DNA of 49,112 nucleotides from a virus. This document shows positions 526-45,731 of the stretch, piece by piece. Every line of letters begins with the position of its first letter. Position 1 is the stretch's first letter. The DNA is taken from IMG/VR virus record IMGVR_UViG_3300033148_003435, positions 1 to 49,112 of that record; one strand, given 5' to 3'. The notes under the pieces are model-generated. The model was not told where the DNA came from and did not search any database. It saw only the letters and a list, made by a program, of their open reading frames with translations. The translations under genes and the position numbers were made by a program.

Positions 526-816
526 CTACATAAGATCAACCGCAACAAAATTTGCGGCTAACGGTGTTCCTTCATTGACGTAAAGCACAGGATTCCACTC
601 GCCATCGCCCCCTCTGTTTTTGCGCGTGTACTGATAGATGCAACCTGTCGCGTAACCAGCTATCGCGCCGAGAACCGCTGTCCCGTAGCACTGCAAGATG
701 TTCCCCGCACCATCACGCCACAAGACAGTCGGCGTACCCGAACTGACCGGCATTTGAGCGTTGTCATGTTGAAACTGTAAATTCCGCCTGTTCATCGGTC
801 GCTGCTTTCTCTTCAT
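526..816 (-). CDS. Small virion-associated protein, tandem paralog (96 aa)
   Basis: Paralog of the 83-residue protein at 217-468. The first ATG (816) overlaps the connector stop codon as ATGA, suggesting translational coupling. A second ATG at 795 aligns better with the start of the paralog (MNRRNLQFQHDN), so the true start could be either. The middle contains an insertion, YTRKNRGGDGEWNP, that is absent from the paralog. Function unknown; a structural role is inferred from its place between connector and tail genes. Confidence 0.7.
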   Translation of the reverse strand: MKRKQRPMNRRNLQFQHDNAQMPVSSGTPTVLWRDGAGNILQCYGTAVLGAIAGYATGCIYQYTRKNRGGDGEWNPVLYVNEGTPLAANFVAVDLM

Positions 817-1880
817 GTCGGGTCTATGCCGTTGTAGAAGACCGGAACAGATCGCCTCCGGTACATCCCCGGCCTTTCCAACTCATCCGACGCGTCTCCG
901 CAGTACCCCAGACTTTTCGCGCCCTTCGCCCGGTCTCGATCAACGCACGCTTCGAGGTGACGCATGAACGCCGCATAGTGAATTCCCTGGTCGTCGTTCT
1001 TCGCCAACTCCGCATAGTGCAGGCACGCCTCAATGATGCCCATCGCACACTGAAACGCGCCGACCGGGTAGATGTACTGCGGCAGGATTTCGTAAGTGCA
1101 TGTTCCCCCGCTCACGAAGTCACCGGTGACGACAACCTCCGTTGTCGTGACTTCAGCCGACTCCGAAGGAGACGCCGACGCCGACGCCGACGCTGACTCT
1201 TCGCTCTCGGTCACACTGCTCACAACGTAGATGCCCTCAGTCGGCCCATCGGCATTGCTGATGATGATTTTGCAACCGGCTGTCACGTCGGAGAAGTCCG
1301 CCGAGGTGTCCTGGAGCGTGTTATACACCCCGTCGGCATCGGCAATGATCGTGCCCTGGCCGCTGGCAATAGGCGTGTCCAACTTGTTGATCTCGCGTTT
1401 GTATCGGTACTTCAGGGTGCGAGCAAGCGAAGGTGTCGGATAGAACACCGCCTCCCACGTCTGCCCGGCGGCGGTCGTGTATTCCAATGGTCGAATCGCC
1501 ACAATGTCAGGATCGCCGCTCTTGTCGAACTCAGAACGCAAGCGCCGTATGCGCCCCTCGTGGGCCTGAAGAATCTGGTTGACATCGCTCTCGCCAGTCG
1601 CAAAAGTGAAGGGCGCTATCAGGCCGCCGAAGTCGGTCGGCAAGGTGTAGGCATACTCACCCACGAGCAACTCCAACGTCGCTATCGGCGAGAGGTATGA
1701 CCATTCGTGGGGAACTTCTTCGCCCGGCAGCACCGGCGGGTTGAGGAACATCCAGTAGCCGTCGTGGATGCAGATTCGGACGATGGAAAGGGCATCCCCG
1801 GATGGCGCAAGCCCTGTCCCCAGGTATTCGGACACCCGCTCGATAAGGTCCCAGTAGGTCAGTCGGTAATTACTTGCCAT
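813..1880 (-). CDS. Head-tail connector/adaptor-like protein with Ser-Ala repeat insert (355 aa)
   Basis: The N-terminus (YRLTYWDLIERVSEYLG) and the overall length fit the adaptor proteins of short-tailed phages (gp4-like, tail tubular A-like) that sit under the portal. The order portal, capsid, this gene, tail is consistent. Around residues 225-240 is a low-complexity SASASASASPSES segment encoded by an imperfect GACGCC-type repeat at about 1165-1200. It is flanked by TTTEVVV and then a short C-terminal domain (QYIYPVGAFQCAMGIIEAC). The Ser-rich segment resembles the linker in the tail protein and may be a recent expansion. The gene ends in an ATGA overlap with the next gene. The connector call rests on position and weak sequence resemblance. 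Confidence 0.6.
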   Translation of the reverse strand: MASNYRLTYWDLIERVSEYLGTGLAPSGDALSIVRICIHDGYWMFLNPPVLPGEEVPHEWSYLSPIATLELLVGEYAYTLPTDFGGLIAPFTFATGESDVNQILQAHEGRIRRLRSEFDKSGDPDIVAIRPLEYTTAAGQTWEAVFYPTPSLARTLKYRYKREINKLDTPIASGQGTIIADADGVYNTLQDTSADFSDVTAGCKIIISNADGPTEGIYVVSSVTESEESASASASASPSESAEVTTTEVVVTGDFVSGGTCTYEILPQYIYPVGAFQCAMGIIEACLHYAELAKNDDQGIHYAAFMRHLEACVDRDRAKGAKSLGYCGDASDELERPGMYRRRSVPVFYNGIDPT

Positions 1881-1892: not shown

Positions 1893-2969
1893 TCAAATGT
1901 TCCGCAGCACGTATCGCCAGAACTCTTCGGATTGCTTGCAGAAGCCCGGCAATCTGATGTCACCAGACGAAACATGCGGAATGGGCGTCCCGGTGGCTTG
2001 CATACCTCTCCTTCGCCCTTCAACAGCATCCGCGAGCCTGTGTTTCATTGTGTGTGTTCTTATTTTGCGGCCCTTCCAATCCACAGCTACGCGAGCCGCA
2101 GATTCTATCTCGTTCAGTCTGTTCCCCGGATGCCACGGCACAGACAACACCATTTCCTCCAAGGCACGCTTTCGCTCTTCTGCGGTCTTGTAGTCCGTCG
2201 CCCAAGCCTCGAAGTCCCACACATTGTCAACGCCAAGGGTCTTACTCAGAAGCACTTCTTCCGACCCCTTTCGCCCGACGACAAGCGGTATATGCGCATA
2301 TCGCGGCCCATAGTAATTCAATGGCCTGCCGATCCATGAGGCCACAATGGGAAAGAGCAACGATTCCATCATGCTCAGACCCAACAAGTCCATTCCCCGG
2401 ATATGCAGTGGCGTTTGCCATGTCATGTAGTCAACAATATGGTCGAATGCGGAAACGATTCGTGCATAGCGCAAAAAGAGAAACGCGCGCTGACGCCACG
2501 CCAGAAGCTCAAGGCTGATCTCGCGCCCCAGGCATTCGTCCACAAATGGCAACGGCATCTGCAACTGCGAAACCATCTTTTCCCAATCCTGCTCGTGGAA
2601 CCGCTTTTCCAGCGCTTTCATTACTGTATAACGAAGCGGGAACAGTTCCGATGCCTTGAACACGATGTCCGGTACGATGTCCAGTAACTCGCACGCCTTC
2701 ATAATGGAGGCTATGGCTTCCCCTTCACGCTTGATGTCTGGTGCAACTTTCGTACCACTGACAGGGCGAATATCGTCCAGCCGGATAGCAAATCGCCACC
2801 CTTGCCGCTTGGCCTCACGAGCACTTAAATGTAGAATCAGAGCATTCGCCAGATGGAGCGGTCCCGTCAGGCCCGGCGGAAAGATCACAGTCGGGTAACA
2901 GTGTTCAACTGGCGGTTCAAGAATACTTCCAACCTCTCCATCAGGTACAAGGAACTCGTCACCCATCAT
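1893..2969 (-). CDS. Glutamyl-tRNA-synthetase-like class I adenylating enzyme, no anticodon domain (358 aa)
   Basis: A class I aminoacyl-tRNA synthetase catalytic core is visible. A HIGH-like motif FPPGLTGPLHLAN lies at about residues 30-42, followed by RLDDIR (63-68), the counterpart of RIEDTD in GluRS/GlnRS. LHIRGMDLL (about 188-196) corresponds to the HVIRGxDLL helix, YAHIPLV to YAHLPLI, and LLSKTLG (240-246) to the KLSKR loop. The length and absence of a C-terminal anticodon-binding domain resemble GluQ-RS-type enzymes, which activate glutamate without charging a normal tRNA. The chosen ATG (2967-2969) follows GGGAGAAAGGCG; longer upstream starts would overlap the methyltransferase gene. 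The last roughly 100 residues are basic and unassigned. The gene closes a five-gene island with two glycosyltransferases, so the product may transfer an activated amino acid to a sugar, lipid or protein, or modify a tRNA. The substrate cannot be read from the sequence. Confidence 0.72.
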   Translation of the reverse strand: MMGDEFLVPDGEVGSILEPPVEHCYPTVIFPPGLTGPLHLANALILHLSAREAKRQGWRFAIRLDDIRPVSGTKVAPDIKREGEAIASIMKACELLDIVPDIVFKASELFPLRYTVMKALEKRFHEQDWEKMVSQLQMPLPFVDECLGREISLELLAWRQRAFLFLRYARIVSAFDHIVDYMTWQTPLHIRGMDLLGLSMMESLLFPIVASWIGRPLNYYGPRYAHIPLVVGRKGSEEVLLSKTLGVDNVWDFEAWATDYKTAEERKRALEEMVLSVPWHPGNRLNEIESAARVAVDWKGRKIRTHTMKHRLADAVEGRRRGMQATGTPIPHVSSGDIRLPGFCKQSEEFWRYVLRNI

Positions 2970-2988
2970 CGCCTTTCTCCCAATGTTG

Positions 2989-3513
2989 TCACACCTTCCT
3001 CCCGATGTACTCGGCCACCGTCTCCTGCGGCCCCCAGTAGACCTTGACAAATCCTACAAACGCATTCCTCATTTCTACATGAGTCGTGAATGGCGAGACA
3101 TGCAACTTGTTCTTGGTGCCGCCCACCTCGATAGGCGCTTGCACGTAAAGATAGCCGCCTGACGCGAGAACACGATAGAATTCCCAGATGGCGGCTGCGC
3201 GATCCTCAATGTGTTCCAATGAGTGACGCGAGAAAACAAGGTCGAAGGCGTTGTCGTGATGGGGCAACTTTTCGGCTGATGCTGTCGCAACGAGCAATCC
3301 TTTCTCTCGCGCCGCGTGCGCAAACGCTTCGACAGGTTCAATTCCAAAAAACTGGGCATGGGGCCAACGCTCTTTCAAGGCCAACATCCCGGCCCCAGCA
3401 TTGCAGCCAATGTCAAGAACACTACCTGTCGGCTTCTGCCCGATTTCGGTCTCGATGCGCTCGGCGGCGGCGATGTAACCGACCGCCATTTCGTCAGGTT
3501 TGCTCACTGTCAT
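2989..3513 (-). CDS. SAM-dependent class I methyltransferase (174 aa)
   Basis: A Rossmann-type methyltransferase. Motif I is VLDIGCNAGAG; the acidic end of strand 2 is FGIEP; SAEKLPHHDNAFDLVFSRHSLEH is the motif III/IV region, given here in two parts (SAEKLP, then FDLVFSRHSLEH); and GGYLYVQAP follows. The pattern matches Methyltransf_11-type small-molecule or glycan methyltransferases rather than DNA methyltransferases, since it lacks an N-P-P-Y motif. The ATG (3511-3513) overlaps the glycosyltransferase stop as ATGA. It lies between a GT4 glycosyltransferase and the GluRS-like gene, so methylation of a glycan or of an intermediate made by this island is the likely role. Confidence 0.85.
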   Translation of the reverse strand: MTVSKPDEMAVGYIAAAERIETEIGQKPTGSVLDIGCNAGAGMLALKERWPHAQFFGIEPVEAFAHAAREKGLLVATASAEKLPHHDNAFDLVFSRHSLEHIEDRAAAIWEFYRVLASGGYLYVQAPIEVGGTKNKLHVSPFTTHVEMRNAFVGFVKVYWGPQETVAEYIGRKV

Positions 3514-4688
3514 CTCGCCATCATCCCCCTGTACTCGTGGATCGCGTCCACCATCTTCGTCGCGTTCCGATGGTCGAACTTCTCCGCCGCCCAGTCGTGC
3601 GTCTTGTCTGCCATTCCTTGCGTTTCCGCAATGTGACGACCCTTTCTGATCGCATCGGCGAGGTCTTCGGGCTTTGTCTCCGGGATGACCAAACCCCAGT
3701 CGTCTTGAACTGTCCCGCACGGTTCGTACTGCGTTGCGCTATGCGGGCAGGCACAATAGTCGAAACTGAATCCCTTGTACGTGACCAGCGGAATCCCGCA
3801 GAGTTGACTTTCGATGAACGGCTGGCCCAAGTTCTCAGCCTTCGAGGGCGATACGTAGAGGTCCATCATCAGGTAAGACCACGGCATGTATCTCCGGTCT
3901 ACCCGCATCCCCCGGAAATGCACGCGGTCACGCAATCCGAGTTGAGCTGCGAGCATCTTCGTGTCTTCCAGCACGTCAAATTCGCTCTTCCCGACGTTAC
4001 CCTTTGGCCCGATCGCCTTGCGTTTGCTCAACCTTGCCGGCTCGTTCGTATGCAAAAAGTAGTGAAGGTCCGGCATCTCCTTGGCAAGTAGAGCCATCGC
4101 CCGCAGTGTGTCGTCGCCCCCTTTGCTGTTCGGCGTGTTGGAGACCGTTCCCATGAAGAACCCGCCATAAGGGATGTTCCAATCCCAACAGAGCCGCCTG
4201 CGGCCTGCCTTCTCGTGCGCGCTAGGCACGTGAAAGAGGTCGGAGTCAAAGAGAGTCGGACAGACGCGCATCTTGTCTCTCGGCACGCCCGACTTCTCAT
4301 ATACGTCAACGCAGTAGGGCGCAATCACGGTCATAAAATGTCTCCGGCAGATGGCCTCTACCGTCCGGTCATGTTCAGCCTTGCGCTCTACGGGGTCCGG
4401 GGCAAAACTCAGATGGGGACACCCATTGCTGCCGTACCACCAGAGACAGGGCACCCCGATGGAGTCGGCGAGTTCCGCAATCTGTATCGGATACCCGCTG
4501 GCACCCTGTATCTGATGCCATGTCCCGCCGAGCACAATGGCGTCCAGATGGCCCAGCGTCTTGTCTTGTAGTTGCTTATACAAGTAGATCGCGCTGACCT
4601 GTTGCACACGATGACCGAGCTTGGTCAGTGCGTAACCGAGTTCGCGCCCCCTTGACGTTGACCCGATAGCGAGCGATTCGCCCTGCAT
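3510..4688 (-). CDS. GT4-family glycosyltransferase (392 aa)
   Basis: A GT-B fold retaining glycosyltransferase. The C-terminal half has the signature SPSKAENLGQPFIESQ with the E-x7-E type acidic pair, preceded by RVHFRGMRVD and followed by GIPLVTYKG. The N-terminal half contains a Rossmann-like LGHRVQQVSA start. The ATG at 4686-4688 follows AGGAG at good spacing; an in-frame ATG 18 bases upstream lacks a ribosome site. The stop overlaps the methyltransferase start. It would transfer a nucleotide-activated sugar in the host cytoplasm; donor and acceptor are unknown. It belongs to the 1.9-6.6 kb island inserted between head and connector genes. Confidence 0.88.
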   Translation of the reverse strand: MQGESLAIGSTSRGRELGYALTKLGHRVQQVSAIYLYKQLQDKTLGHLDAIVLGGTWHQIQGASGYPIQIAELADSIGVPCLWWYGSNGCPHLSFAPDPVERKAEHDRTVEAICRRHFMTVIAPYCVDVYEKSGVPRDKMRVCPTLFDSDLFHVPSAHEKAGRRRLCWDWNIPYGGFFMGTVSNTPNSKGGDDTLRAMALLAKEMPDLHYFLHTNEPARLSKRKAIGPKGNVGKSEFDVLEDTKMLAAQLGLRDRVHFRGMRVDRRYMPWSYLMMDLYVSPSKAENLGQPFIESQLCGIPLVTYKGFSFDYCACPHSATQYEPCGTVQDDWGLVIPETKPEDLADAIRKGRHIAETQGMADKTHDWAAEKFDHRNATKMVDAIHEYRGMMAR

Positions 4689-4727
4689 GTCAATCTCCTG
4701 TCTCATTCAAACTTGGAATCTGTAACG

Positions 4728-5504
4728 TCACGGTTTTATTTTCCTGTTGCGTGCCTTCATGGAGTCCTTCAGATCGAACGGAAGACCTACGATAACGTCC
4801 TTGAAACCAAGTCCCTTGGCATAGACTCTCGATCCGGCATCAAGACCTTTCTGATAACCGGCGCCACACCAAATGTTCATGCGCTGAAGCCACTGTTGCA
4901 AACGTGCGACGGTGAAACCCGGATACTCTTTTGACCAGTCGTGCCTCACAAACTTCTCAGACCAAAAGGGCAATGCTGGATCGCCAAAAGCGTACCCGAC
5001 CAGATCATGGCCGCCGAGACAGAATATCTGTGTGTCTCGAAGGGAATGTTGCAGGGAGAAAGTCCGCATGTCGTAGAGAAGCGGATAGTACGAGAGCGAG
5101 CAAACCCATTCATACCCCATGCGCTCCGCATCGTCGAGGTAATCCTGGGCCAGAAGAGCATCGCCGTAAAACTCCCCCTTGTCCCCATTCGCCAGCGCCA
5201 ATTTCGTTGTGAGTTTCATCACTCGTCCAAGTTGCTCAAGATCATTAGAAAACTTCGGACTGGAAAGATGCTCTGTAAGCTGGCGAGATTGCGACCTGGC
5301 CGGGATGTAGCAATAGCCGAGAATGAATTCGAGACCTAATCCCTTACAAACCTCAGCAATCTTAGTGACCTTCGAGGGGACTTTGGGGCCGGGTATCAGA
5401 AGATACAACCCGCGAATGCCCTGTTTGGCGACGGCCGCTATCTTCTGATACAACCCATGCCAAGATGCCCTGATCTGAAAGTAGGCATACACGTTGTTGT
5501 TCAT
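4728..5504 (-). CDS. Unknown protein of the glycosyltransferase island, possible TIM-barrel fold (258 aa)
   Basis: I do not recognise a family with confidence. Alternating hydrophobic strands and helices suggest a barrel: VYAYFQIRASW, then GIRGLYLLIPG, then GLEFILGYCYIPA, YEWVCSLSYYP and IFCLGGHDLVGYA. Several acidic and aromatic residues at strand ends resemble glycoside-hydrolase-like or radical-free TIM barrels. It has many Tyr and Trp, no signal peptide and no membrane segment. The ATG overlaps the stop of the upstream glycosyltransferase (ATGA), so the two are probably translated together. A role in sugar processing is inferred only from context. Confidence 0.7.
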   Translation of the reverse strand: MNNNVYAYFQIRASWHGLYQKIAAVAKQGIRGLYLLIPGPKVPSKVTKIAEVCKGLGLEFILGYCYIPARSQSRQLTEHLSSPKFSNDLEQLGRVMKLTTKLALANGDKGEFYGDALLAQDYLDDAERMGYEWVCSLSYYPLLYDMRTFSLQHSLRDTQIFCLGGHDLVGYAFGDPALPFWSEKFVRHDWSKEYPGFTVARLQQWLQRMNIWCGAGYQKGLDAGSRVYAKGLGFKDVIVGLPFDLKDSMKARNRKIKP

Positions 5505-6580
5505 GCCAACAACTCCTCGTAGATGCCCTCATACGCACGCGCAACCGCCTTGGGACTTGTTCGCCTGACCATCACTTCTCGCCCTGCCTCAAGGCCACTC
5601 GCGTCAACCAACACTTCCCGAATCGCGGCCACCATACCGTCCACGCCAGGCTCGGCAACCTTCACGGCGCCCGCCTCGACGTACCCGGAAAACATCGGCG
5701 AATTCGACACGACAACCGGCGTGCCGGACGCCACGGACAGAACGACCGTGCCGCTCGATGAATGCCACTTGCCCTGATGGTTCAGCACAATCACATCCGC
5801 CCATTTGCACATGGTTTCTATTTCACTGTCGGGGAAAAACCCCTCTTGAAGTTGAACTCGGCCCGCCTTCTCCTGAATCCGCAACTTGTCTCGGGTTTGC
5901 TTTTGCTCGCCTGTCAATACTTCACCCATGATGATGTATCCGATGCCGAAATACTCCGCTTTCAGCTTTTCGACTGCCTCGATAACCTCAAGATGCCCCT
6001 TGTTGCTGCCCATCATCCCCCAAGTCAAAATCCTGGGATATATCCTGCCTTGAGGTTGCTCGGTGCACTGCAAATCAGGATAAGGCAAAGGAACGTATTT
6101 GATGGGCCTCTTCATCGGTATGTGATATTCCACGGCGAGACTCGCCAACGCCTGCACAAGCCCCGGTGTGCCCCCCACAACCTGGTCTATGCACGACAGA
6201 ACCCCCTTGTTCGTCTGCTTGAAAACCGGAACATCAAGAAGAACATGAGCGGTTGCAACTGTTTTGATGCCCAGTTCCAGTGCTACGTCCCGGCCTTTTC
6301 GCAAAGACTTAAATGGAAATAAGGAAGGGTCGAATTGAAGATGAAGAATAGACGCCCCGTGTTCCTTCGCCTTACGAACGCAAGTTTCCATTGCGTCTTC
6401 TTCGCCCCTTCGCCAGCACCGTTCACATCGGAATTCCCCGTTGTTGCTCGGCTCCCCATAGTATTTCGGGGGATGCTCGCCAAGGATAAACACGTCCCCC
6501 TGAAAATGCGGCAGCCAGTAGCTTAAGTGCTTGGCTACGCCGCACGGAATTCCCCAGGGTGTCGCTTGAGCCACCATCAT
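5501..6580 (-). CDS. GT-B glycosyltransferase (359 aa)
   Basis: A GT4-like glycosyltransferase. The start WGIPCGVAKHLSYWL resembles the GGxxxH-type N-terminal loop of GT4 enzymes. TWGMMGSNKGHLEVIEA is the usual FxxxGRxxxxKG counterpart, and the C-terminal half has HSSSGTVVLSVASGTPVVVS with the conserved small-residue helix. A CERCWRRGEEDAMETC segment near residues 53-68 contains cysteines that may bind a metal. The ATG follows GGAGATTGCCGGA. It is the first gene of the island after the 109-residue virion gene. It differs clearly from the other GT at 3510-4688, so the pair probably adds different sugars. Confidence 0.85.
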   Translation of the reverse strand: MMVAQATPWGIPCGVAKHLSYWLPHFQGDVFILGEHPPKYYGEPSNNGEFRCERCWRRGEEDAMETCVRKAKEHGASILHLQFDPSLFPFKSLRKGRDVALELGIKTVATAHVLLDVPVFKQTNKGVLSCIDQVVGGTPGLVQALASLAVEYHIPMKRPIKYVPLPYPDLQCTEQPQGRIYPRILTWGMMGSNKGHLEVIEAVEKLKAEYFGIGYIIMGEVLTGEQKQTRDKLRIQEKAGRVQLQEGFFPDSEIETMCKWADVIVLNHQGKWHSSSGTVVLSVASGTPVVVSNSPMFSGYVEAGAVKVAEPGVDGMVAAIREVLVDASGLEAGREVMVRRTSPKAVARAYEGIYEELLA

Positions 6581-6593: not shown

Positions 6594-6923
6594 TCACATC
6601 GCCAGGATGGTCACTGTTGCATCACTGGCGGCACTGGACGCACCGATATGACTGAAGAAGAGCTTGCTGATCCGCATGGTGCGATCAAATGTCAGGCCAG
6701 CCGCAACCGTGACTGGAATCTCGGCGAGTGTGGTGGCATTCAACTTGACGGTGATCTCGACATCTGTGGTCAGACGAAGATAGACGGAATCACCACCGAC
6801 GTCTCGACCCAAGGCAGCCAAGATGGCCCTGAGATCCAATTCTTGATTCTCGACAAGCATGGGCACGGTGTAAGCGCCGTTGTAGTAGTAATTGTCGCCA
6901 TCAATGAGATTGTCACCTAGCAT
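6594..6923 (-). CDS. Hypothetical virion-module protein (109 aa)
   Basis: A short beta-rich protein with phrases DNYYYNGAYTVPML, VYLRLTTDVEITVKL and ISKLFFSHIGAS. It has no membrane segment or cysteine pairs. An ATG at 6921-6923 has a weak GAGAACG ribosome site; a GTG 12 bases upstream is an alternative. It lies directly after the capsid and decoration-like genes and before the glycosyltransferase island, so a small head or head-completion protein is plausible. No family recognised. Confidence 0.6.
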   Translation of the reverse strand: MLGDNLIDGDNYYYNGAYTVPMLVENQELDLRAILAALGRDVGGDSVYLRLTTDVEITVKLNATTLAEIPVTVAAGLTFDRTMRISKLFFSHIGASSAASDATVTILAM

Positions 6924-6987
6924 GTCCGTTCTCACTCAAGTTGTGGGGACGGGCTGCGGACCGCGCCGCCCGCCCCCTGGAAATCGC

Positions 6988-7767
6988 TTACGTCGCTGCG
7001 TCCGCCGAGGTCGGCGTCACCTTGGGCGCCCACTCGAAGCCATTCCACACCAGGATGTCCTGATCGCCGGCCGCATCGTAGAAACGATGCTCCGGGTCAC
7101 TGGTCTCGTGGTGCGTGATGTTCACGTCCACCTCGTTGCCGGCGGTGAACGTCCCCAGACAGAGGATCGCCTTGTCCTGCTGAGGATACAGACCATCGGC
7201 CAGCGTCCCGACGTGATCGCCGGTGCCGATGTTGACCGTACCGGTGAGGTACGTCACGCCGCCCACCATGACGGTGAACGTCGCGCCGGTTGTCGGCGGC
7301 TCAATCGACTGCACGCCACCCGACTGCGGGCCGTCGTCCGCTTGAACCATCACAACCGCCGGAGTCGCCGTCAGTGTGGCGTCCGTCTCCATCGCGGTCG
7401 CGCTGCCGGCACCGGGGAACCCTGCCCGACCCATGTACCACTGGTCGGCCTGGACGGTCAGCCGGGTCTCGTTCACAACAGAGTTCAAACCCACGAAGGC
7501 CCGGAACATTTCCGAACCCGGCTTGATGATGTCGATGTGACACGGACCCGCCAACCCGGTGACGGACGACGGATGGACCCACCCTGCAAAGTTCTTGCAG
7601 TTGGCGATGGTGGGTTTCTCCACGTTGTACGCGCGCTTCACGTCTTCGTCGGTCGCCGTGCCTTTGTCCGCGTCGTAACAAAGGCAGTACCCTTCAGCCA
7701 AGACCTCCGTGCCGGTGTAGTACGCGCGCTCTACAATCAGCAGCGGCCTTTCCTTTTGAGTCTGCAT
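6988..7767 (-). CDS. Probable virion (head decoration or fibre) protein (259 aa)
   Basis: The ATG at 7765-7767 is preceded by AAAGGAGACGGCA. The protein is rich in Gly, Thr, Ala and Val with a beta-sheet pattern (TLTATPAVVMVQ, FTVMVGGVTYLTGTV), typical of decoration or fibre domains. The C-terminus includes DILVWNGFEW. It lies immediately downstream of the major capsid gene in the same direction, the usual place for a decoration protein. No enzyme motif. The role is inferred from position and composition. Confidence 0.6.
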   Translation of the reverse strand: MQTQKERPLLIVERAYYTGTEVLAEGYCLCYDADKGTATDEDVKRAYNVEKPTIANCKNFAGWVHPSSVTGLAGPCHIDIIKPGSEMFRAFVGLNSVVNETRLTVQADQWYMGRAGFPGAGSATAMETDATLTATPAVVMVQADDGPQSGGVQSIEPPTTGATFTVMVGGVTYLTGTVNIGTGDHVGTLADGLYPQQDKAILCLGTFTAGNEVDVNITHHETSDPEHRFYDAAGDQDILVWNGFEWAPKVTPTSADAAT

Positions 7768-7859
7768 TGCCGTCTCCTTTGGCTTTGGCTCCGTTACGTT
7801 TTTCCGAAGCCGCTGTTTGCGGGAGACCCGGGCATCCACCCAGGCCCCCCGGCCGACTT

Positions 7860-7878
7860 AGCGGGGACCGCCCCCGCT
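7860..7878 (-). other. GC-rich hairpin just downstream of the major capsid gene
   Basis: A perfect 7-bp inverted repeat (AGCGGGG/CCCCGCT, loop of 5) starts five bases after the capsid stop codon. No U-tract follows on the minus strand, so it is not a standard intrinsic terminator. It may stabilise the abundant capsid mRNA or reduce read-through into the 259-residue gene. Confidence 0.35.
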
Positions 7879-7882
7879 TCGT

Positions 7883-9010
7883 TTATGCCACCTTGTTGCA
7901 ACATCCTTGCTGCCTGCGCGACCAGCACAGATAGGCGTACTGGAGGTCCACAAAGGTCGTGAAGACGTTGTGCTGTTCCTTGTCCACGATGGGTTCGCGC
8001 TCGACAAGGTAGAAGTCCTCCAGCACATACGTCTTGAACGAGTTGTGGTTGATCATGTAAACCGGGTCGTACTGACCCGCTTCACCCGCGCCGGTCGAAT
8101 CCAGAATCGGCATGTGAATCAACGGCTGCCGCTTGAACGAAGTCATTCCCATGTACTTCGCCAAGTCGCTGCCGATCTGGTCGTTGCTCTGCCGCATGTA
8201 CTTCTCCAACTTGACAAGGGTCTGCTTGTTCAAGTAGATGCGGTGATTTGCAACGGTGGAGTTCCCGACGAGATCCTTTGCGAGCAACGGACTCTGGAAG
8301 TTGATGCTGTAGAACATCAACGCGAGCTGCTCGATCAGGAAGTCGTTGACCGCGGTGTACGCGGCCTGGTAGGAGCGCCATCTCGGTTTCCCGCCGGTGA
8401 TCGTCACGGTGTTGCTGTTCGCGGTAGCGGGGATGATGCCCCCGACAGCGGTAAACGCAGCAGAGTACATCCCGCCGTAAAACCCGGCGGCCGTGGCTGC
8501 CTGGCCTGCGGCCAGCTTGGGCACCCAGTACGGAAGCCCCAGCGGCGTGAGGTTGTCGCTGTCAACTGCCGGCACCATCCAGGCCCTTGATTCGAGCAGG
8601 TCGGCCAGTGAGACCATGGACGGCCCGCGATTCGTCTTGATGAGCTTGATGAACCCGCGACTCCACATCTCTGCGTTCTGGCCGCTCCGGTTCATCGCCA
8701 CCTCGCTGCGCTCGATATTCCAGTGCGTGTCCGCACGCACCCAATCGGCTTTGAGGGTACTGACCACGTCTACGACTCCAGTTGCCTCGACCTGATAGGC
8801 CCGAACGTGTCGGGCCGCGCCGTTGTCGTCCAGCACCACCTTCTTGGTGATTCTCGTGCCGCCCTCGACTTCAACCTTGTCCTTGGCGAACCACCTGTTG
8901 CAGACTTCGTACTTTTGCAGGTTCGTCTCGAACGGCAACACGTTCTTCGGTAGTGCTTCGGTAGTCGTGGCGAGAAGGTCGAGCATTTCACTGGTTGTTA
9001 CACCAGCCAT
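7883..9010 (-). CDS. Major capsid protein (375 aa)
   Basis: Identified by size, composition and position: it directly follows the scaffold-like gene and precedes a decoration-like gene. The sequence has the helix-plus-sheet pattern of HK97-fold capsids. An N-terminal helix region lies before about residue 60, NTVTITGGKPRWR and HRIYLNKQTLVKLEKYM suggest a long central helix with nearby strands, and VYMINHNSFKTYVLEDFYL is followed by VFTTFVDLQYAYLCWSRR near the C-terminus, a common ending for capsid proteins of this type. The ATG follows AGAGAGAGGCAGACA. It ends with a Cys pair, GCCNKVA. I cannot assign a named capsid family, but no other gene here fits as well. Confidence 0.8.
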   Translation of the reverse strand: MAGVTTSEMLDLLATTTEALPKNVLPFETNLQKYEVCNRWFAKDKVEVEGGTRITKKVVLDDNGAARHVRAYQVEATGVVDVVSTLKADWVRADTHWNIERSEVAMNRSGQNAEMWSRGFIKLIKTNRGPSMVSLADLLESRAWMVPAVDSDNLTPLGLPYWVPKLAAGQAATAAGFYGGMYSAAFTAVGGIIPATANSNTVTITGGKPRWRSYQAAYTAVNDFLIEQLALMFYSINFQSPLLAKDLVGNSTVANHRIYLNKQTLVKLEKYMRQSNDQIGSDLAKYMGMTSFKRQPLIHMPILDSTGAGEAGQYDPVYMINHNSFKTYVLEDFYLVEREPIVDKEQHNVFTTFVDLQYAYLCWSRRQQGCCNKVA

Positions 9011-13473: not shown

Positions 13474-14511
13474 TCAATCTCCCCATCTGTCTCTACTCCG
13501 CCGCTGAATCTTCGCCTGCTGCGCACGCCAGGCCATTGACTTGACCGGTATCTTCCGCCGCGTCTCAGCCTCGTACTTCGGCATGTCCAGACATGCACGA
13601 TACGCCAATGCACAAGCCACAACCAAGTCACCATGCCGCTCCCGCACCTCGACCGGCAGATTGGCCCGTTGCTGGTGCGTGATTCGCCCGCTCTCGTCGT
13701 AGATGTACTGCTGATGCTGCTGGATGGTCGTCATGCTGTGGAGGATGGTCCGGTCGTGCTGGATGGCGTCCATCCACTTCCCAAACAGGTAGGGCGACGT
13801 GGACTCCCCGCCCGGCCAGCCGTAGTTCTTCGCCTCGTACTCCGTGGTCTGATCGACGACCTTGGAGCGCCACACCCGCATGTACCCGCAGTCGTCCATG
13901 ATCGACCGCAGGACGGTGATCCCGTGCATCTTGCGCACGCAGCAGATGAGACCCTTGTTGAAGTACGTCGCCATCGCCACGGCCAGCCGGCCCAGGTCGG
14001 TAGGCCTGATGCGGTTCGACGCGAACTCGGCGCACTGCTCCCGGTTGTCCACGAAGAAGACCTGAATGGTCGAGTCCGACTGCCCCACGCCCTCGCCTAC
14101 GTCGATACCCAGCCCGCAGGAGCGCAGGACGTGCTTGGTATCTTCGGGCAGCCCCGTCGGCTGGGTGTCCGGTGCCAGGTACACGCGAATCGGCCCGTCA
14201 TCCTTGCGAACCAGCGGCCCCTTGTCGCTGTCCGGCTCCCACGCCATACAATAGGCCGGGTTGATCGCCCGCTTGCGTTGTCGGTCAGTCCACTCAGGAT
14301 TAAAGACCGGCATCCCCGCCTGTGCTCCAAAGTCCCGTTCGTACTCCTTGCGCCACCGCCAGCCAGGGAGCGCCTTCTTCTCGGCGGCAATGACATCCGG
14401 CGTGAAGGCTACCGGATCAGCCTCATAGCCGAGGTCCACCGCGACGAACCCCGTCGAGGTAGGCCGCGCACTCAGGCCAGGCATCAGGACTGTCGGGGCT
14501 TCGATCAGCAT
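13474..14511 (-). CDS. terL (nuclease part): Large terminase, C-terminal nuclease part as a separate gene (345 aa)
   Basis: The protein starts where a terminase linker would: DLGYEADPVAFTPDVIA then WRKEYERDFGAQAG matches the stretch just before the nuclease domain of large terminases. The RNase H-like nuclease has CGLGIDVGEGVGQSD with a catalytic Asp (D137), VFFVDNREQ, and the late RHGDLVVACALA with the second acidic residue. The ATPase part is a separate gene at 14935-15621, with two small membrane genes between. The ATG at 14509-14511 overlaps the upstream membrane gene's stop. Together the two genes probably make the packaging motor; each half lacks the motifs of the other. Confidence 0.85.
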   Translation of the reverse strand: MLIEAPTVLMPGLSARPTSTGFVAVDLGYEADPVAFTPDVIAAEKKALPGWRWRKEYERDFGAQAGMPVFNPEWTDRQRKRAINPAYCMAWEPDSDKGPLVRKDDGPIRVYLAPDTQPTGLPEDTKHVLRSCGLGIDVGEGVGQSDSTIQVFFVDNREQCAEFASNRIRPTDLGRLAVAMATYFNKGLICCVRKMHGITVLRSIMDDCGYMRVWRSKVVDQTTEYEAKNYGWPGGESTSPYLFGKWMDAIQHDRTILHSMTTIQQHQQYIYDESGRITHQQRANLPVEVRERHGDLVVACALAYRACLDMPKYEAETRRKIPVKSMAWRAQQAKIQRRSRDRWGD

Positions 14512-14639
14512 GGTTCGTGATCCTTCGGCTTGGGCGGGTAGGAACGGCAACGATGCACGGTGCAAAGGTACTCAAAGATGAAGATGACAACCATGCCCAG
14601 CAAAATGCCAATGCACACTGTAAGTATGTTCCCGATCAT
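14505..14639 (-). CDS. Small single-span membrane protein between terminase halves (44 aa)
   Basis: An ATG overlapping the upstream stop as ATGA. The protein is almost entirely one transmembrane helix, GNILTVCIGILLGMVVIFIF, followed by CTVHRCRSYPPKPKDHEPC with three cysteines. It overlaps the start of the nuclease gene. A holin-like, antiholin or membrane-anchored packaging partner are all possible; the position is unusual. Confidence 0.65.
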   Translation of the reverse strand: MIGNILTVCIGILLGMVVIFIFEYLCTVHRCRSYPPKPKDHEPC

Positions 14640-14935
14640 GCGCTCTGCTTCTCCTTCTCGGGGTAACGGCCGCACGCTGCGTCGGCACATAGCGGGCCTA
14701 CGCCTTCGGGTGTCCATCGGCCAGAGGTTCCGATTGGAACGCCACAAGTGATGCAGTTCATCGGTTCGCAGTACGGCTCCGGCGGGTTCCGCTCCTTGTC
14801 CGGCTTGCCCGGCCCTGCTTCACGATACCAATGAATCCGCATCTTGGGCGAAGTCAACAGGTACTTGAGCATGCACAGGAACAGCATGCAAAGTAGCAGG
14901 CCAACGATGAAGCCGAGAATCTGGTCTGGAGGCAT
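14636..14935 (-). CDS. Membrane protein with C-terminal zinc-ribbon-like motif, between terminase halves (99 aa)
   Basis: Start ATG at 14933-14935 overlaps the ATPase stop (TGATG). The N-terminus is a transmembrane helix (ILGFIVGLLLCMLFLCMLKY), then a basic linker. The C-terminal half carries MNCITCGVPIGTS and LCADAACGRYP, a four-Cys ribbon. Adjacent to a second membrane peptide (14505-14639), which suggests a pair. Function unknown; a holin/antiholin-type or packaging-membrane role is speculation. Confidence 0.65.
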   Translation of the reverse strand: MPPDQILGFIVGLLLCMLFLCMLKYLLTSPKMRIHWYREAGPGKPDKERNPPEPYCEPMNCITCGVPIGTSGRWTPEGVGPLCADAACGRYPEKEKQSA

Positions 14936-15621
14936 CACGCATACTCCCCAATGTCGTCAAGAAACAGGTGCTGGAAAAAGCCTGGATTCGCGGTCGATAA
15001 CGCCACGAACCAGCCGCCGCCACGGATGCACGGCTGCGCGGCGACATAGGCGTCTGAGAACTCGTCTTGAAAGCCGCACTCGTCGCTCAACACGCCGGAA
15101 GCCGTCCGCTGCCTGATGATCGCAGCGCCCTGCGGGATCGCCCACAGGGTTGAATTGTTGTCCAGGAACTCGATCCGGTTGTAGATCATCTTCACCCGCC
15201 CCATCAGCCGCGGTGCGGGCAGGTGTTCGAGGATGAACTTCGCACGGCCCAGGAGGCCATCGCCCGTCACCGGGTCGCCGATTGCATCCTCTTCCCGCTT
15301 CGATTGCAGCATGATAAGCCGGCCGGAATGAAACATCGCATCCCACAGCGCCAAGGCCGTGAACAACCAGGTCATCAGCATTTGGCGTGACTTGGCAATG
15401 ACGAGCTTCGGGTTGTGCTCCCACAGACGCACGATGAACTGCACGTGTCGGCGCTCCCAGGGAAACGGCTTGATCGGATGCTCTTGGTCGTGCTGGTCGC
15501 ATGTCGTTACGAAATACCTCAAAAAATCAAGCGGGTCAGTCCGAGCTATTTCCCATCTCTGGTTCACCCGGTCCTGCTCCGTCACCGTCAACTGTTGGAT
15601 CAATGCGTGCGGCATGGGCAA
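14935..15621 (-). CDS. terL (ATPase part): Large terminase, N-terminal ATPase part as a separate gene (228 aa)
   Basis: Large terminase ATPase: AKSRQMLMTW at residues 76-85 is the Walker A-like adenine/phosphate region (KSRQxGxTT in relatives). GVLSDE (176-181) is Walker B with its catalytic Glu, and ALSTANPG (217-224) is motif III. It ends at FFQHLFLDDIGEYA, where the relatives continue into the linker and nuclease, which here is the separate gene 13474-14511. The start is a TTG at 15621 with GGAG upstream or an ATG at 15615; both overlap terS by about 80 bases, and a later GTG (15567) is possible. Confidence 0.85.
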   Translation of the reverse strand: MPMPHALIQQLTVTEQDRVNQRWEIARTDPLDFLRYFVTTCDQHDQEHPIKPFPWERRHVQFIVRLWEHNPKLVIAKSRQMLMTWLFTALALWDAMFHSGRLIMLQSKREEDAIGDPVTGDGLLGRAKFILEHLPAPRLMGRVKMIYNRIEFLDNNSTLWAIPQGAAIIRQRTASGVLSDECGFQDEFSDAYVAAQPCIRGGGWFVALSTANPGFFQHLFLDDIGEYA

Positions 15622-30944: not shown

Positions 30945-31085
30945 TGTCAACCTGTCAGAAGGCCGGAGCTTCCTGGAGGGGGGCTCCCGTCGGCGCCCAA
31001 GTTGCTTTCGGTTTGATCTGGCTTGGTTCATGTCCAGCCTTTCAGGTTGACAAGATAAGTATAGTGTAATTCTCAGACTTGTCAA
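30945..31085. promoter_or_regulatory. Repressor operator region with inverted half-sites
   Basis: TTGACAAG (31047-31054) and CTTGTCAA (31078-31085) are perfect complements 23 bases apart. TGTCAACCT (30945-30953) and AGGTTGACA (31044-31052) are a second perfect pair about 90 bases apart. The half-sites overlap the -35 of the early promoter. These are candidate binding sites for the S24 repressor, possibly with looping. A GGAGC/GCTCC hairpin (30965-30987) lies in the early leader. Confidence 0.55.
31058..31085 (-). promoter_or_regulatory. Strong sigma-70 early promoter
   Basis: Minus strand TTGACA (31085-31080), 16 bases, TATACT (31063-31058): 6/6 and 5/6 matches. It points into the early operon whose first gene starts at 30894, leaving a leader of about 155 nt. 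The -35 coincides with an operator-like half-site, so the repressor would block it. A plus-strand promoter for the repressor is not clear; a TATAGT (31060-31065) has no good -35. Confidence 0.75.
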
Positions 31086-31108
31086 GGGAAAAATCGGATT
31101 ATTTTTTG

Positions 31109-31753
31109 ATGAGGGCCGTAACTCCGGCAATGGCAAAGGCTTCTGGGCAGAAAAAATCTGGAGAAATTTCAAGAAGGCTCTCGGAATTAGCCGATTTTAT
31201 CGGCACAGTAGCGGAGCTTGCCCGCCGATCAGGCGTCAAAGATGCGACCATTCGAAATGCGATCAAGAAGGGCGGTGCGATTTCCTCAGAGTCTTTACGA
31301 CTTGTTGCCCTTGGCAGTGGCTGCTCCGCTCACTGGCTACTCCACGGCACCGGCGAGATGTTCGCCTCTGAATCTGCCCCCAACAGCATCCCCGTCTTGG
31401 CGACCGCCAGCGGCGCCGACTTCTCAGGCGTCTGCTCCATTTCAACCGACAGCGAGCAGTTCGATGAATCAGAAACTCTGCCCGGAGACTTGCATCTTGT
31501 CCGCGTTCATGGTAATTCCATGAGCAATGTCGCCCATGATGGGCAGCATGTTTTCTGCACGCACGAGCAACCGAAGAATGGAGACCTGGCGGTGATCGAG
31601 ACGGTGGACGACGAGCTGATGTTCAAGCGGCTCTATTTCACCGACGACCACGTGCTCTGTATCAGCGTCAATGTGGACCCGCGTTACCGCCCGATCCTGC
31701 TCAAGAAGTCACAGGTTCGCCGGATGAGGAAGGTCTGGGGAGTGAAATTTTAG
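31109..31753 (+). CDS. CI/LexA-type phage repressor with S24 peptidase domain (214 aa)
   Basis: HTH near residues 30-56 (FIGTVAELARRSGVKDATIR). The C-terminal S24 domain has VRVHGNSMSN with the catalytic Ser137 and LMFKRLY with Lys173, the usual Ser/Lys dyad spacing. The protein should keep lysogeny by blocking the early promoter, and may self-cleave on DNA damage. An ATG at 31130 is an alternative start. It diverges from the early operon and is followed after 11 bases by the coiled-coil gene. Confidence 0.88.
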   Translation: MRAVTPAMAKASGQKKSGEISRRLSELADFIGTVAELARRSGVKDATIRNAIKKGGAISSESLRLVALGSGCSAHWLLHGTGEMFASESAPNSIPVLATASGADFSGVCSISTDSEQFDESETLPGDLHLVRVHGNSMSNVAHDGQHVFCTHEQPKNGDLAVIETVDDELMFKRLYFTDDHVLCISVNVDPRYRPILLKKSQVRRMRKVWGVKF

Positions 31754-31764
31754 GAGGGCACGCG

Positions 31765-34164: not shown

Positions 34165-34179
34165 CACGATCTCCTTTCC

Positions 34180-42191: not shown

Positions 42192-42424
42192 AGTTCTCCA
42201 TACACCGTCTGAAAGAACCGGCGAAGCTCGCTCGCCGTCTTCACATTTCCATGCGCCGCAGTGCCGGGGTTCTCCTGGACCCAAATCCTGCAATTCCGGT
42301 TGTGCTCAACAAGGCTGTACGCGCCGGGGTCAATCGCGCTGGCCGGGTGCTCGGTCAGCAGCATCCGCCATGCTCGCTTGAACCAAGTCGCGTCGTGCGC
42401 GTTCAGGCTGATCGCTGTTGCCAT
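42188..42424 (-). CDS. Hypothetical protein (78 aa)
   Basis: ATG at 42422-42424, overlapping the glycosyltransferase end by 22 bases. Starts MATAISLNAHDATWFKRAWR, with CRIWVQENPGTAAHG and a helical C-terminus. Function unknown; last gene before the repeat array. Confidence 0.5.
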   Translation of the reverse strand: MATAISLNAHDATWFKRAWRMLLTEHPASAIDPGAYSLVEHNRNCRIWVQENPGTAAHGNVKTASELRRFFQTVYGEL

Positions 42425-43167
42425 AGGAAATGAGCTTTCTCTATTGCTGCATAAATCTTGCCAGCTTGTGCCTCTTGACAAACATCTCCCGCATTGGCGT
42501 TTGCGAGCTTCTTGACAATGCTTTCAAGTTCGTCAATCGTCTTATAGTGAATGACCGGCCAGTCCCACGCCCACCCCACATCCGGCGCGATAACCGGCTT
42601 GTTCCCTGCAATCGCCTCCACAACGCACATCGGGCCGCCTTCGTTTGTCGAAAGCACGAGCACATAATCCGCGTCGCTGTAGAAAGCGGGCATTTCCTTG
42701 AACCGCAGGCCGCCGCCGCTGAAGATGATTTGTGCATTCGGAATACTGAAAAGCCTTTCTATAATGTCGAGTCGTTTTCGATTGGCTTCGGCCTGCCTTC
42801 CGACTACGCCAAACACCACGGGTCCGGGCACGCAGAATTGAGGATCAATCCCCGGACCGATTACATGAGTCTTTTCAGCCGGAAGTTGCTCTGCGGTTTT
42901 CTTCGACATGGCGATACACAAGTCCGCGTCTCTCGCGGCCACATCGAACATTTTCTGCCACGCGGGGCTGCTGCGATAATGCGTGAAGTACACGACATCG
43001 TATGTCGCCGTCTTCCCCCGGAACTGGTCGTAAGGTAAATAGAGATTCACGTCGGCGTTCTTGTCAATCCCAGGCCCAATCGAACAATCAGACCAATGCC
43101 GTTGCCAGCCTTCGGCGATGCGTCGTAACACCCAATGCTTGTCCTTGCAGACTATCCGTATCTTCAT
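42403..43167 (-). CDS. GT-B glycosyltransferase (254 aa)
   Basis: Short GT4-like enzyme. IRIVCKDKHWVLRRIAEGWQ at the start, FGVVGRQAEANRKRLDI as the UDP-binding loop region, and VLSTNEGGPMCVVEAIAGN with the Glu signature of the C-terminal domain. The ATG overlaps the fusion glycosyltransferase stop as ATGA, so the two are co-translated. The shortness (no full N-terminal domain) may reflect an atypical acceptor domain. Confidence 0.8.
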   Translation of the reverse strand: MKIRIVCKDKHWVLRRIAEGWQRHWSDCSIGPGIDKNADVNLYLPYDQFRGKTATYDVVYFTHYRSSPAWQKMFDVAARDADLCIAMSKKTAEQLPAEKTHVIGPGIDPQFCVPGPVVFGVVGRQAEANRKRLDIIERLFSIPNAQIIFSGGGLRFKEMPAFYSDADYVLVLSTNEGGPMCVVEAIAGNKPVIAPDVGWAWDWPVIHYKTIDELESIVKKLANANAGDVCQEAQAGKIYAAIEKAHFLWQQRSA

Positions 43168-45731
43168 GCCGGTTTTCCCTGTGTTGCCAACTTCTTCCAC
43201 TGGCCGCTGCTCATAAAAGAATGCCTGCCGACAACGATATATCGTCGTGCCAGTTCCTTCGATGCTCGGATAGAATGATGCTTGTCGCCCACATAGGCCA
43301 AAGTCATCTGATCGCGGCAGGTCCATTTGAGTATCATCTGCCACCAGTCCGCCATCGTCTCGATACAGCGTTGCTCATTGTGCGCGCGGATGAGACAGTT
43401 GTTTTCAAGGAAGGCGTTCCCGTTCGGGCTATACCCGACGCTCTTGTACCAGCTCAAAAGTCTCTGAAGAACCGCCGGGTCCTCTCGGTGGCACCGCAAG
43501 ACGTTGGCGGCCTCATCGAATACCGTCTTTGATCTCGGATGAGCGAACCCGGAAATGGGCGTTTCCCCAAGGGGTTCCGACATGGCGAGCGCAGCAACCG
43601 GCCCGCAGATGCGGATTGAGCCATCTACCCATACCGAACGGTTCACCTCTGGAAAAAACTCGTGCGCTTTCACCTTGAAGCGTTTGGCATTCAGGTTCGG
43701 GTTGTCGGAATCGCCGGGAACGTAACGCACGTCCCAGAGGCTCGATCTTTGATCTTTGTCATCTGTAAAGCACACATATCGAGCGTTCTTCTCAATACAC
43801 AGCGGCGTTTTCAGCGTGTCCTTCCCGCCATAGATTGCCGTGTAAACCACAACAGGAGGCGGTCGTTTTATCCCCCTCCTATTAGCTCTCCTCAGTGCCC
43901 GGACAGAGATACGCCGGTGGTGTGTCGTTTTCACGTCATGCGTGCATCCGAGTATCCAACCCTTTGCCCTAAGCCGACTCGATGCGTGCTGGTCTATTGC
44001 CAGTTCACGAGCACGAGGTACTTTCCACTCAATTCCGCGCAATGAGATCGTCTTGAAGACGGTAAACGACCATGAGCAATGCCTCTGATTCTGCCGCAGT
44101 CCATCCCCAAGAGGAACACTGAATCGTTCCGTCATAAGGGGGCCGAGCCTGCGCCCGCTGGGTGTGCGGTAAATGCCTTCCATACAGCAGACCTTCTGGG
44201 GTGCGCGTTTCAACATCGCAAGCAACTTCTCCGGTTGCCCGCGGTCAATCCATACGTCACTTTCGACGAACAGAATATACGGCGTCCGGCATTCCTTGAG
44301 AGCCAGTTCATAGAGCCGGTTCAGCCGTGGGGGTCGCCCGCCCGTTACTTCAAGAATGCGAAATCCCATGCCGTGTATCTCGTTCTTGAATGTTGGCTCA
44401 GCATAATCAACCGGAGCGAGCTTGATCGCATCTGGCAGGGCAGCACAGACTCGCTTCAACGCCTCTCGGTTAATCTTTTCGGTTTTCTTATCTGGTGCAT
44501 AAATCGCCGTCACAACCGTAAGCTCTTTTGCACACTCGAACATCCTGAGAACCCCCGCGACTTTCGCGGGATCGGCGCACTCCGCTATCGAGAGTTGCCG
44601 CGACAGCATGTGCGCCATGAACCGCTTGACACGGTTGCCATCGATCTCCTTCGGCCCTTTCACCGCCCCGCGAATCGTCTGGAACTCGCTCGTGACGCCG
44701 TTGCCTGTGAACCAGCCCTTGCCCAGCGTCACCACCGGCGTACCCGCGAGCATCGAGGTAAACACCACCGTCGAGTTGACCAGAACCACGTGCTGCGCGT
44801 TGACAACCAACCAGGCCATGAGATTCTCATTCATCGCCTTCGGGATCAGCTTGTACGACCCCTCGTGTTTCGCCGGGATATTCGACAGGTCCACCTTCTT
44901 GTCTTCGGGATGCGGCTTGACCACAACGAACTTGCCGAGGTTATACGCTTCACGGATGATCTCCTTCGCCACGCGCGTCATGCTCCGGCGCTTTGGCACA
45001 CTGTCGTTCAGCAAGACGGAATCCTTGGTATTCTGGAGGCACAGGAAGATGAACTCCTTCGGCACGCCTTCGGGAGCCGTTGCCTTGGTGGCCTGTTCGT
45101 GAATCAGGTCGTGCAGTTCGCCAACCTTCGCCATCTGCGCGTCGGCCAATGCCCTGTAATGACCGTTCGCTTCGAGCCGGTCGAGACTCCGCACGATTTC
45201 GCTTTCAGCGTTCTCGCCTTTCGGATCGAAGATCACCGCCCCGTAGTGCGGCCAGACGCCAAAGTCAACATACAAGGTCGGAATCTTCCGCGCCGCAATG
45301 GCCTTGCGAACCTCGCTGCCCCACTCTCCGAACAGCCGTTGCCAGCCGACGTACAGGTCGGTCTCTTTGTCCGCGATGCACTTGATCGCGTCGTCCTTCC
45401 ACGATTCGCTTGGGCTATCGCTGCCACGGATAATCTTCACGACGTTGTGGCCGAGTTGCTCGAAAGACTTGATAAGGTTCCGCATCGAGCTTTTCTTCTG
45501 CCCCCACGGCAGCACGAGTATCTTCAGCGGCTTTGTCCTTCTGTAATACTCACAACTGCGACACTTCGTATGCCAGACCTCATGCTTACGTTTTGCACAA
45601 AGGAATATCTCAACCTTTCCGCAACACGACTTCTTTTCTTCCCGCAAGGTCTCCCCACGGTAAACACACCTTTCGGGGCGTTGAGATATGTCAAGAACCG
45701 TCTTTGCGCGTTTGAAAAACGTACTGGGCAC
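43164..45731 (-). CDS. Three-module glycosyltransferase fusion (855 aa)
   Basis: Module order: an N-terminal zinc-knuckle-like Cys cluster (about residues 22-60, CVYRGETLR, SCCGKVEIFLC, KCRSCEYY). A KpsC/LpsZ-like region follows at about 70-390, with VVVKPHPEDK (271-277) and NSTVVFTSMLAGTPV (319-333). A GT-A-like domain (about 403-620) begins ELTVVTAIY, with ESDVW (490-494) as a DxD-like metal site. Last comes a C-terminal domain (about 630-800) of the TOD1/MUCI70 (DUF616) type: YTAIYGG, CFTDD (654-658) and WVDGS (701-705). Start is a GTG with GAGGA upstream. It probably adds several sugars to a glycan; donors unknown. The combination in one polypeptide is uncommon in phages. Confidence 0.8.
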   Translation of the reverse strand: MPSTFFKRAKTVLDISQRPERCVYRGETLREEKKSCCGKVEIFLCAKRKHEVWHTKCRSCEYYRRTKPLKILVLPWGQKKSSMRNLIKSFEQLGHNVVKIIRGSDSPSESWKDDAIKCIADKETDLYVGWQRLFGEWGSEVRKAIAARKIPTLYVDFGVWPHYGAVIFDPKGENAESEIVRSLDRLEANGHYRALADAQMAKVGELHDLIHEQATKATAPEGVPKEFIFLCLQNTKDSVLLNDSVPKRRSMTRVAKEIIREAYNLGKFVVVKPHPEDKKVDLSNIPAKHEGSYKLIPKAMNENLMAWLVVNAQHVVLVNSTVVFTSMLAGTPVVTLGKGWFTGNGVTSEFQTIRGAVKGPKEIDGNRVKRFMAHMLSRQLSIAECADPAKVAGVLRMFECAKELTVVTAIYAPDKKTEKINREALKRVCAALPDAIKLAPVDYAEPTFKNEIHGMGFRILEVTGGRPPRLNRLYELALKECRTPYILFVESDVWIDRGQPEKLLAMLKRAPQKVCCMEGIYRTPSGRRLGPLMTERFSVPLGDGLRQNQRHCSWSFTVFKTISLRGIEWKVPRARELAIDQHASSRLRAKGWILGCTHDVKTTHHRRISVRALRRANRRGIKRPPPVVVYTAIYGGKDTLKTPLCIEKNARYVCFTDDKDQRSSLWDVRYVPGDSDNPNLNAKRFKVKAHEFFPEVNRSVWVDGSIRICGPVAALAMSEPLGETPISGFAHPRSKTVFDEAANVLRCHREDPAVLQRLLSWYKSVGYSPNGNAFLENNCLIRAHNEQRCIETMADWWQMILKWTCRDQMTLAYVGDKHHSIRASKELARRYIVVGRHSFMSSGQWKKLATQGKPA

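Follow-up and report, generated by a model that had tools for sequence, protein, structure and literature searches.

The stretch of viral DNA analysed here, below called the window, comprises all 49,112 nucleotides (nt) of IMG/VR record IMGVR_UViG_3300033148_003435 and carries, on its minus strand at positions 1893-6580, a cassette of five genes in which a small protein resembling glutamyl-tRNA synthetase (mini-GluRS) is encoded together with glycosyltransferases. Read along the minus strand, the cassette consists of a GT-B, GT4-type glycosyltransferase (GT1, 5501..6580; PF00534, E = 4.7e-10), a 258-amino-acid (aa) protein without a family match (gene 4, 4728..5504), a second GT-B, GT4-type glycosyltransferase (GT2, 3510..4706; PF00534, E = 1.5e-10), a small S-adenosylmethionine-dependent methyltransferase (2989..3513; Pfam Methyltransf_11, E = 1.5e-19) and the mini-GluRS gene itself (1893..2969). 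Both glycosyltransferases exceed the Pfam cut-offs, in agreement with an earlier note, made from the letters of this DNA, that had recognised two such enzymes and the methyltransferase. All five genes of that note lie on the minus strand at the positions it gave, but the ATGA coupling that it described occurs at only two of the four junctions (5504/5501 and 3513/3510); at each of the remaining junctions about 20 nt separate the genes, and one of these spacers contains a Shine-Dalgarno sequence. Translation of mini-GluRS likely starts at the ATG at 2969, behind GGAGAAAGG; the open reading frame as listed begins at TTG 3050.

The 358-aa mini-GluRS consists of a core (residues ∼27-275) and a poorly predicted tail (279-358), and the core contains a HIGH-type HLAN (39-42), RLDD (63-66), IRGMDLL (190-196) and SKT (242-244). 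Its library matches are weak, with Pfam PF00749 (tRNA-synt_1c) found below cut-off at E = 1.2e-3, the NCBIfam GluQRS model TIGR03838 reached with 26.7 bits (E = 3.3e-6) against a cut-off of 276.7, and scores far below the curated cut-offs for GluRS and glutaminyl-tRNA synthetase (GlnRS). An AlphaFold2 model built from 33 aligned sequences had a predicted TM-score (pTM) of 0.72, with core blocks at a predicted local confidence (pLDDT) of 80-97 and a low-confidence tail of about 80 residues from around residue 279. When this model was compared with the PDB by Foldseek, all of the 29 best matches were GluRS or GluQRS (best, GluRS 2cfo, E = 2.8e-8; GluQRS 4a91, E = 6.1e-7); the overall TM-scores were only ∼0.45, lowered in part by the poorly modelled tail. 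The model contains the Rossmann catalytic core of a class I, E/Q-type synthetase, with His39 and the SK pair (242-243) retained, and no anticodon-binding domain follows this core. The synthetase core with these four motifs and the missing anticodon domain, both claimed in the earlier note, are thus borne out by profile matches and predicted structure, and the identification of 1893-2969 as a class I catalytic core of the GluRS/GluQRS type, without zinc knuckle or anticodon domain, holds at the level of sequence and model.

Relatives were found with a hand-written degenerate DNA pattern (P...G.LH[hydrophobic][GA]...R[hydrophobic]DD, with fixed fold spacing), which matched 81 stretches in viral contigs, mostly GlnRS- or GluRS-like genes. 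Set apart among these matches was a group of proteins of about 230-256 aa, and an alignment of six of them then recovered 13 IMG/VR contigs (individual contigs bear L numbers below). None of the relatives in the family has an anticodon domain and the model has the GluRS fold, so that neither of the two outcomes which the earlier note had named as speaking against its reading occurred. In a phylogenetic tree the family formed a separate group (support 87/94), within which L092 and L095 made up one clade (95/96). In the PDB, the family profile matched GluRS and GlnRS structures with E-values down to 1.9e-21, and its match to GluQRS was weaker (5.2e-9). Ten members scored 60-91 bits against a GluQRS equivalog cut-off of 250 and fell far below every curated synthetase cut-off, and in PHROGs the members aligned only with portions of two longer families of uncharacterised proteins (493 and 553 positions); the family is therefore without a name in the libraries searched. 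A second degenerate pattern with [DE]D yielded no new member, tblastn of one member against isolate phages gave only distant GluRS-type matches, and a plasmid search for the family gave no match. The scan of cellular genomes had alphaproteobacterial GluQRS among the matches listed, which says nothing on the absence of the family from cells. We thus regard as real a so far undescribed family of GluRS/GluQRS-type cores, zinc-free and stand-alone, in about a dozen unrelated uncultured tailed phages. Distinct from this family in the tree was another set of GluRS-like phage proteins, likewise short (∼270-330 aa), which bear an APSPTG motif and were seen in L006, L007, L011, L015, L023, L028 and others.

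The window protein matched the family profile with 34.1 bits over the full core, compared with 14.8, 13.3 and 7.5 bits for profiles of jumbo-phage GluRS, alphaproteobacterial GluQRS and GlnRS built in the same way. Shuffled versions of the window protein (2,000) scored 4.9 bits at most, so the match is not due to chance. Seventeen family-invariant columns are kept, including H39, D66, D180, R191, G192, E202 and S242, with E202 being part of the family-specific motif TExxLY. The family invariants are not all present, however, as Ile29 takes the place of the TRF arginine and HLAN that of HxGH. From these comparisons, the window protein is probably a strongly diverged member of the family. Single-sequence pattern scans, as well as an alignment with E. 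coli GluQRS and GluRS, found no relatives of the window protein itself, tblastn against isolate phages gave nothing for it, and no mini-GluRS was found among terminase relatives in a search that had no positive control.

Glutamate in GluQRS is contacted by Arg9, Ala11, Ser13, Glu45, Tyr172 and Arg190 (PMC12736043). Arg9, Ser or Thr at 13, Glu or Asp at 45 and Arg190 are kept in all 12 complete family members, which fits an acidic amino acid, and Tyr172 and the zinc cysteines (101, 103 and 119) are absent from all twelve and from the window protein. In the glutamate pocket of the window copy, a site whose check the earlier note had proposed, Ile29 stands for Arg9 and Gly33 for Ser13, next to Asp65 and Arg191. 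Class I enzymes need the HIGH histidine and the SK lysine for adenylation, and the window protein has both; the SK serine is retained in it and in all family members examined.

Glycan genes accompany the family in much of its range, in what are probably accessory cassettes that typically lie in the head-gene region. A Pfam glycosyltransferase match lay less than 6 kb from the mini-GluRS gene in seven of the eight family contigs longer than 15 kb (in one, L097, below cut-off) and in none of 16 control phage contigs with GlnRS/GluRS-type genes, although the control phages differ from the family phages in size and type. GH42-like genes above the Pfam cut-off were adjacent or less than 5 kb away in 6 of the 13 family contigs, and sugar ABC transporter genes were present in L089, L091, L094, L096, L097 and L029 (Pfam-tested in L091). 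The order is most complete in L091, where the terminase, portal and head genes, a gene in capsid position and a decoration gene are followed by a cassette of GT4, GT2, mini-GluRS, two GH42-like proteins, ABC ATPase, permease and sugar-binding protein, and then by head-completion and tail genes including one for a tape-measure-like protein. The L089 cassette lies after a Pfam-confirmed phage capsid gene and before connector-type genes, and those of L029 and L094 end in connector-type genes. L094 further encodes a DegT aminotransferase and a GT17, and L097 a nucleotide-sugar dehydratase-like protein. In L217, a distance of ∼0.3 kb separates the capsid gene from the SU10 adaptor gene and the cassette is missing there, which suggests that it is accessory cargo.

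Several features of these neighbourhoods stand on their own. Complete ribose-type sugar ABC transporters are located inside structural blocks at L091:13380-15955, L029:3679-6268, L094:10693-13294 and L096:4111-7613, and the GH42-like proteins adjoining them have a common N-terminal motif, M-F---DE-I-ILMD. At L089:11721-14954, a different sugar transporter (a binding protein and two permeases) occupies the same cassette position. A GT4 fused to an FkbM-type methyltransferase adjoins mini-GluRS at L090:7051-8931, echoing the separate glycosyltransferase and methyltransferase genes of the window. Proteins without assignment are encoded directly downstream of mini-GluRS at L095:5516-6571 and L092:10718-11294.

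The window cassette likewise lies between a capsid gene, assigned by position only, and connector genes, an arrangement that is clearest in L089 and L091 and is not seen in every family contig. On its downstream border is a probable head-tail adaptor gene (813..1880, minus strand), SU10_adaptor-like at E = 6.5e-4, below cut-off. Three head-region genes form the upstream border (6594..9010, minus strand; 6594-6935, 6988-7839 and 7883-9010), the last of which probably encodes the major capsid protein. These three are judged by position only, with the gene order set against that of L215 and L217, and no similarity of the window capsid protein to those of the relatives compared was detectable. The placement between head and connector genes in the earlier note thus finds a weak profile match on the connector side and positional evidence on the capsid side. 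Third-position GC content was 0.59-0.72 in the cassette genes versus 0.80 in the probable capsid and portal genes (both assigned by position), the pattern that acquired cargo would give. The window methyltransferase resembles that of L097 (E = 3.1e-6), and GT2 resembles the GT4 of L090 (E = 2.7e-6). The phage has a second glycosyltransferase cluster (42403..45731, minus strand), composed of a GT4 (42403-43344) and a multidomain protein (43164-45731) with Capsule_synth and TOD1/MUCI70 domains; a gene similar to the TOD1-type part of the latter is located directly upstream of the L089 mini-GluRS gene (E = 1.7e-20).

Synthetase paralogues acting outside translation are known in cells, among them MshC, GluQRS and PoxA, and GluQRS moves glutamate onto the cyclopentene diol of queuosine. 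MshC, a paralogue of cysteinyl-tRNA synthetase (CysRS), joins cysteine to glucosaminyl-inositol (GlcN-Ins) without tRNA (PMC9437257, PMC2922099), and GluQRS activates glutamate without tRNA and has no anticodon domain (PMC9437257). The phage proteins have in common with GluQRS (YadB) the single GluRS core lacking an anticodon domain, the HIGH, R-[ED]-D, RG-D and SK motifs and, in the family, a pocket of the Arg9/Ser13/Glu45/Arg190 type. They differ in being without zinc knuckle or Tyr172 (the window copy also without Arg9 and Ser13) and in lying in phage glycan cassettes rather than at a cellular locus. With the bacterial GluRS/GlnRS catalytic domain (PF00749) they share the fold, the catalytic motifs and the top Foldseek matches, but the window protein stays below the Pfam cut-off, has no tRNA-reading domains and is very diverged. 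MshC offers a mechanistic model, as it uses a class I core without tRNA to place an amino acid on an amino sugar in a pathway that also includes a GT4; unlike the phage proteins, it derives from CysRS rather than GluRS, has a known acceptor and belongs to a cellular pathway. Glycosyltransferase clusters of tailed phages that glycosylate virions, for example in mycobacteriophages, similarly lie near head genes, but the descriptions that we found include no synthetase-like enzyme, GH42-like proteins or sugar transporters.

By analogy with these systems, mini-GluRS may be a tRNA-independent aminoacyl-AMP ligase that places an amino acid on a sugar, with the window gene as a diverged member of the phage family, a proposal to which we give nearly even chances. 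The enzyme would bind ATP with its HxxN and SK motifs and, with no tRNA involved, convert an amino acid to its adenylate; in the family this would probably be glutamate or some other acidic one. The aminoacyl moiety would then be transferred to a sugar that the adjacent glycosyltransferases produce, at one of its hydroxyls or amines. The result would be a glycan decorated with an amino acid and carried by the virion or the host surface, or else a conjugate in solution. The earlier note had likewise suggested amino-acid activation for glycan or virion decoration, with GluQ-RS-style tRNA modification or relaxed specificity as alternatives.

A number of observations weigh against this proposal, in addition to the imperfectly matched controls. 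It is drawn from fold and neighbourhood, and activity, acceptor and product are predicted. Glycan clusters are common in phages. L092 and L095 have no recognisable glycosyltransferase nearby, nor do L087 and L088 by Pfam, where the protein directly downstream of mini-GluRS reads as GH42-like and is not recognised by Pfam. GH42-like and transporter genes are missing from the window cassette. Its glycosyltransferase-island setting recurs in unrelated phages, but the exact five-gene order, which the earlier note had suggested searching for, was not found in other contigs. The importers of the sister cassettes are unexplained under a model of pure virion decoration. The window protein itself joins the family in the tree with a support of 77/85 and a branch of 4.45 changes per column, and its 26.7 bits with the GluQRS model are not far under the 34 bits with the family profile; confidence in the window copy is lower because it is such an outlying member. 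In its pocket the alpha-amino contact and one arginine are retained and the other arginine and the serine are gone, as is the glycine of HIGH. The amino acid used by the window copy may therefore differ, and from its sequence an altered specificity is quite possible; the copy may have changed substrate or lost activity.

The last of these points leads to the reading of the window copy as a degenerating or repurposed remnant of a family that is active elsewhere, with specificity or activity lost here. The very long branch and the missing Arg9, Ser13 and HIGH glycine would fit this, as would two motif scans of IMG/VR that gave no closer relative. The reading frame is nevertheless intact, with a Shine-Dalgarno sequence and a tight operon, and the confidently modelled core still has the HIGH histidine, the two aspartates of RLDD, IRGxD and SK. 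Pseudogenes rarely retain catalytic residues selectively, and we consider a remnant unlikely. Somewhat less probable in our view is a phage tRNA modifier of the GluQ-RS type, which would glutamylate queuosine or another host tRNA base and so tune translation during infection. Among single-domain relatives GluQRS comes closest by NCBIfam, it too activates glutamate without tRNA and without an anticodon domain (PMC9437257), and most of the glutamate pocket is kept in the family. The absence of the zinc cysteines and Tyr172 from family and window protein, scores far under the GluQRS cut-off and the location among glycan genes make this function less likely, and the window genes tested included none recognisable as a queuosine gene.

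The ribose-type transporter genes (ATPase, permease and binding protein) of several cassettes, together with a weak best NCBIfam match of GT2 to MshA of mycothiol synthesis, would suit a soluble, mycothiol-like or opine-like sugar-amino-acid conjugate taken up through the sugar ABC transporter of the sister cassettes. However, the window cassette encodes no such transporter, its place among virion genes suggests late expression, and the MshA match reflects generic GT4 similarity, so that we view this alternative as improbable, to much the same degree as a tRNA modifier or slightly more. A conventional minimal glutamyl- or glutaminyl-tRNA synthetase sustaining translation would account for the GluRS fold and catalytic motifs, but it is highly improbable given the lack of anticodon or stem-contact domains, scores far under the GluRS and GlnRS cut-offs and short proteins throughout the family; a tRNA gene search found none in the window or the family contigs. 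HipA-type kinases, for example, modify the serine of the GluRS KLSK motif, and the retained SK serine could mark the protein as a decoy that draws off host enzymes directed against GluRS. This serine is already part of the catalytic motif, the operon context is glycan synthesis and the synthetase-like proteins matched no PADLOC defence family, making a decoy the most remote of these explanations. PADLOC likewise had no match for the glycosyltransferases and gene 4, and only a generic one for the methyltransferase.

The remaining features of the window are given here for completeness. Gene 4, called barrel-like in the earlier note, could not be confirmed as such: it had no match in Pfam, NCBIfam or PHROG, its single-sequence AlphaFold model (pLDDT 42) shows alternating strands and helices only at low confidence, and a single-sequence pattern scan found no relatives. 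A GH42-like barrel is not supported for it, as it has no profile similarity to the GH42-like proteins of the sister cassettes. The large terminase looks split into an ATPase part (14935-15621) and a nuclease part (13474-14565) with a small open reading frame (14636-14938) between them; in the relative L004, an HNH-like reading frame lies between the two terminase halves. Two tandem small reading frames at 217-816 (83 and 96 aa) contain the near-repeated sequence NLQFQHDNA..VLWRDGA..ILQCYG and are apparently duplicated virion accessory proteins. Within the region 31079-40611, a polyvalent protein of 2015 aa with an LPD38 domain (34564-40611) accompanies an integrase (32690-33760) and an S24-type repressor (31079-31753), the latter two suggesting that the window phage is temperate.

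Our literature search, in which most subscription papers and preprints lay outside the coverage, found no description of a synthetase paralogue in a phage glycan cluster, and we know of no described phage with aminoacylated-glycan chemistry of this kind. On the strength of sequence comparison and modelling, the finding is real and wider than the earlier note had supposed: the family is new, it is new in its context, and the function proposed for it is plausible. More tentatively, and as a possibility that we would still call doubtful, phages may repeatedly have acquired a GluRS-derived amino-acid:sugar ligase that works without tRNA, and may retain it, together with its glycosyltransferases, GH42-like enzymes and sugar importers, at a site for cargo genes in the head-gene region. 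Such cargo would yield aminoacylated glycans serving as a virion coat, as a change of the host surface or as a private imported conjugate. That such a family recurs alongside glycan genes and sugar transporters, often at one and the same place among the late genes, points to unexplored chemistry by which phages would decorate virions or hosts, and since its members are small single-domain enzymes, tRNA-free aminoacyl transfer is directly testable.

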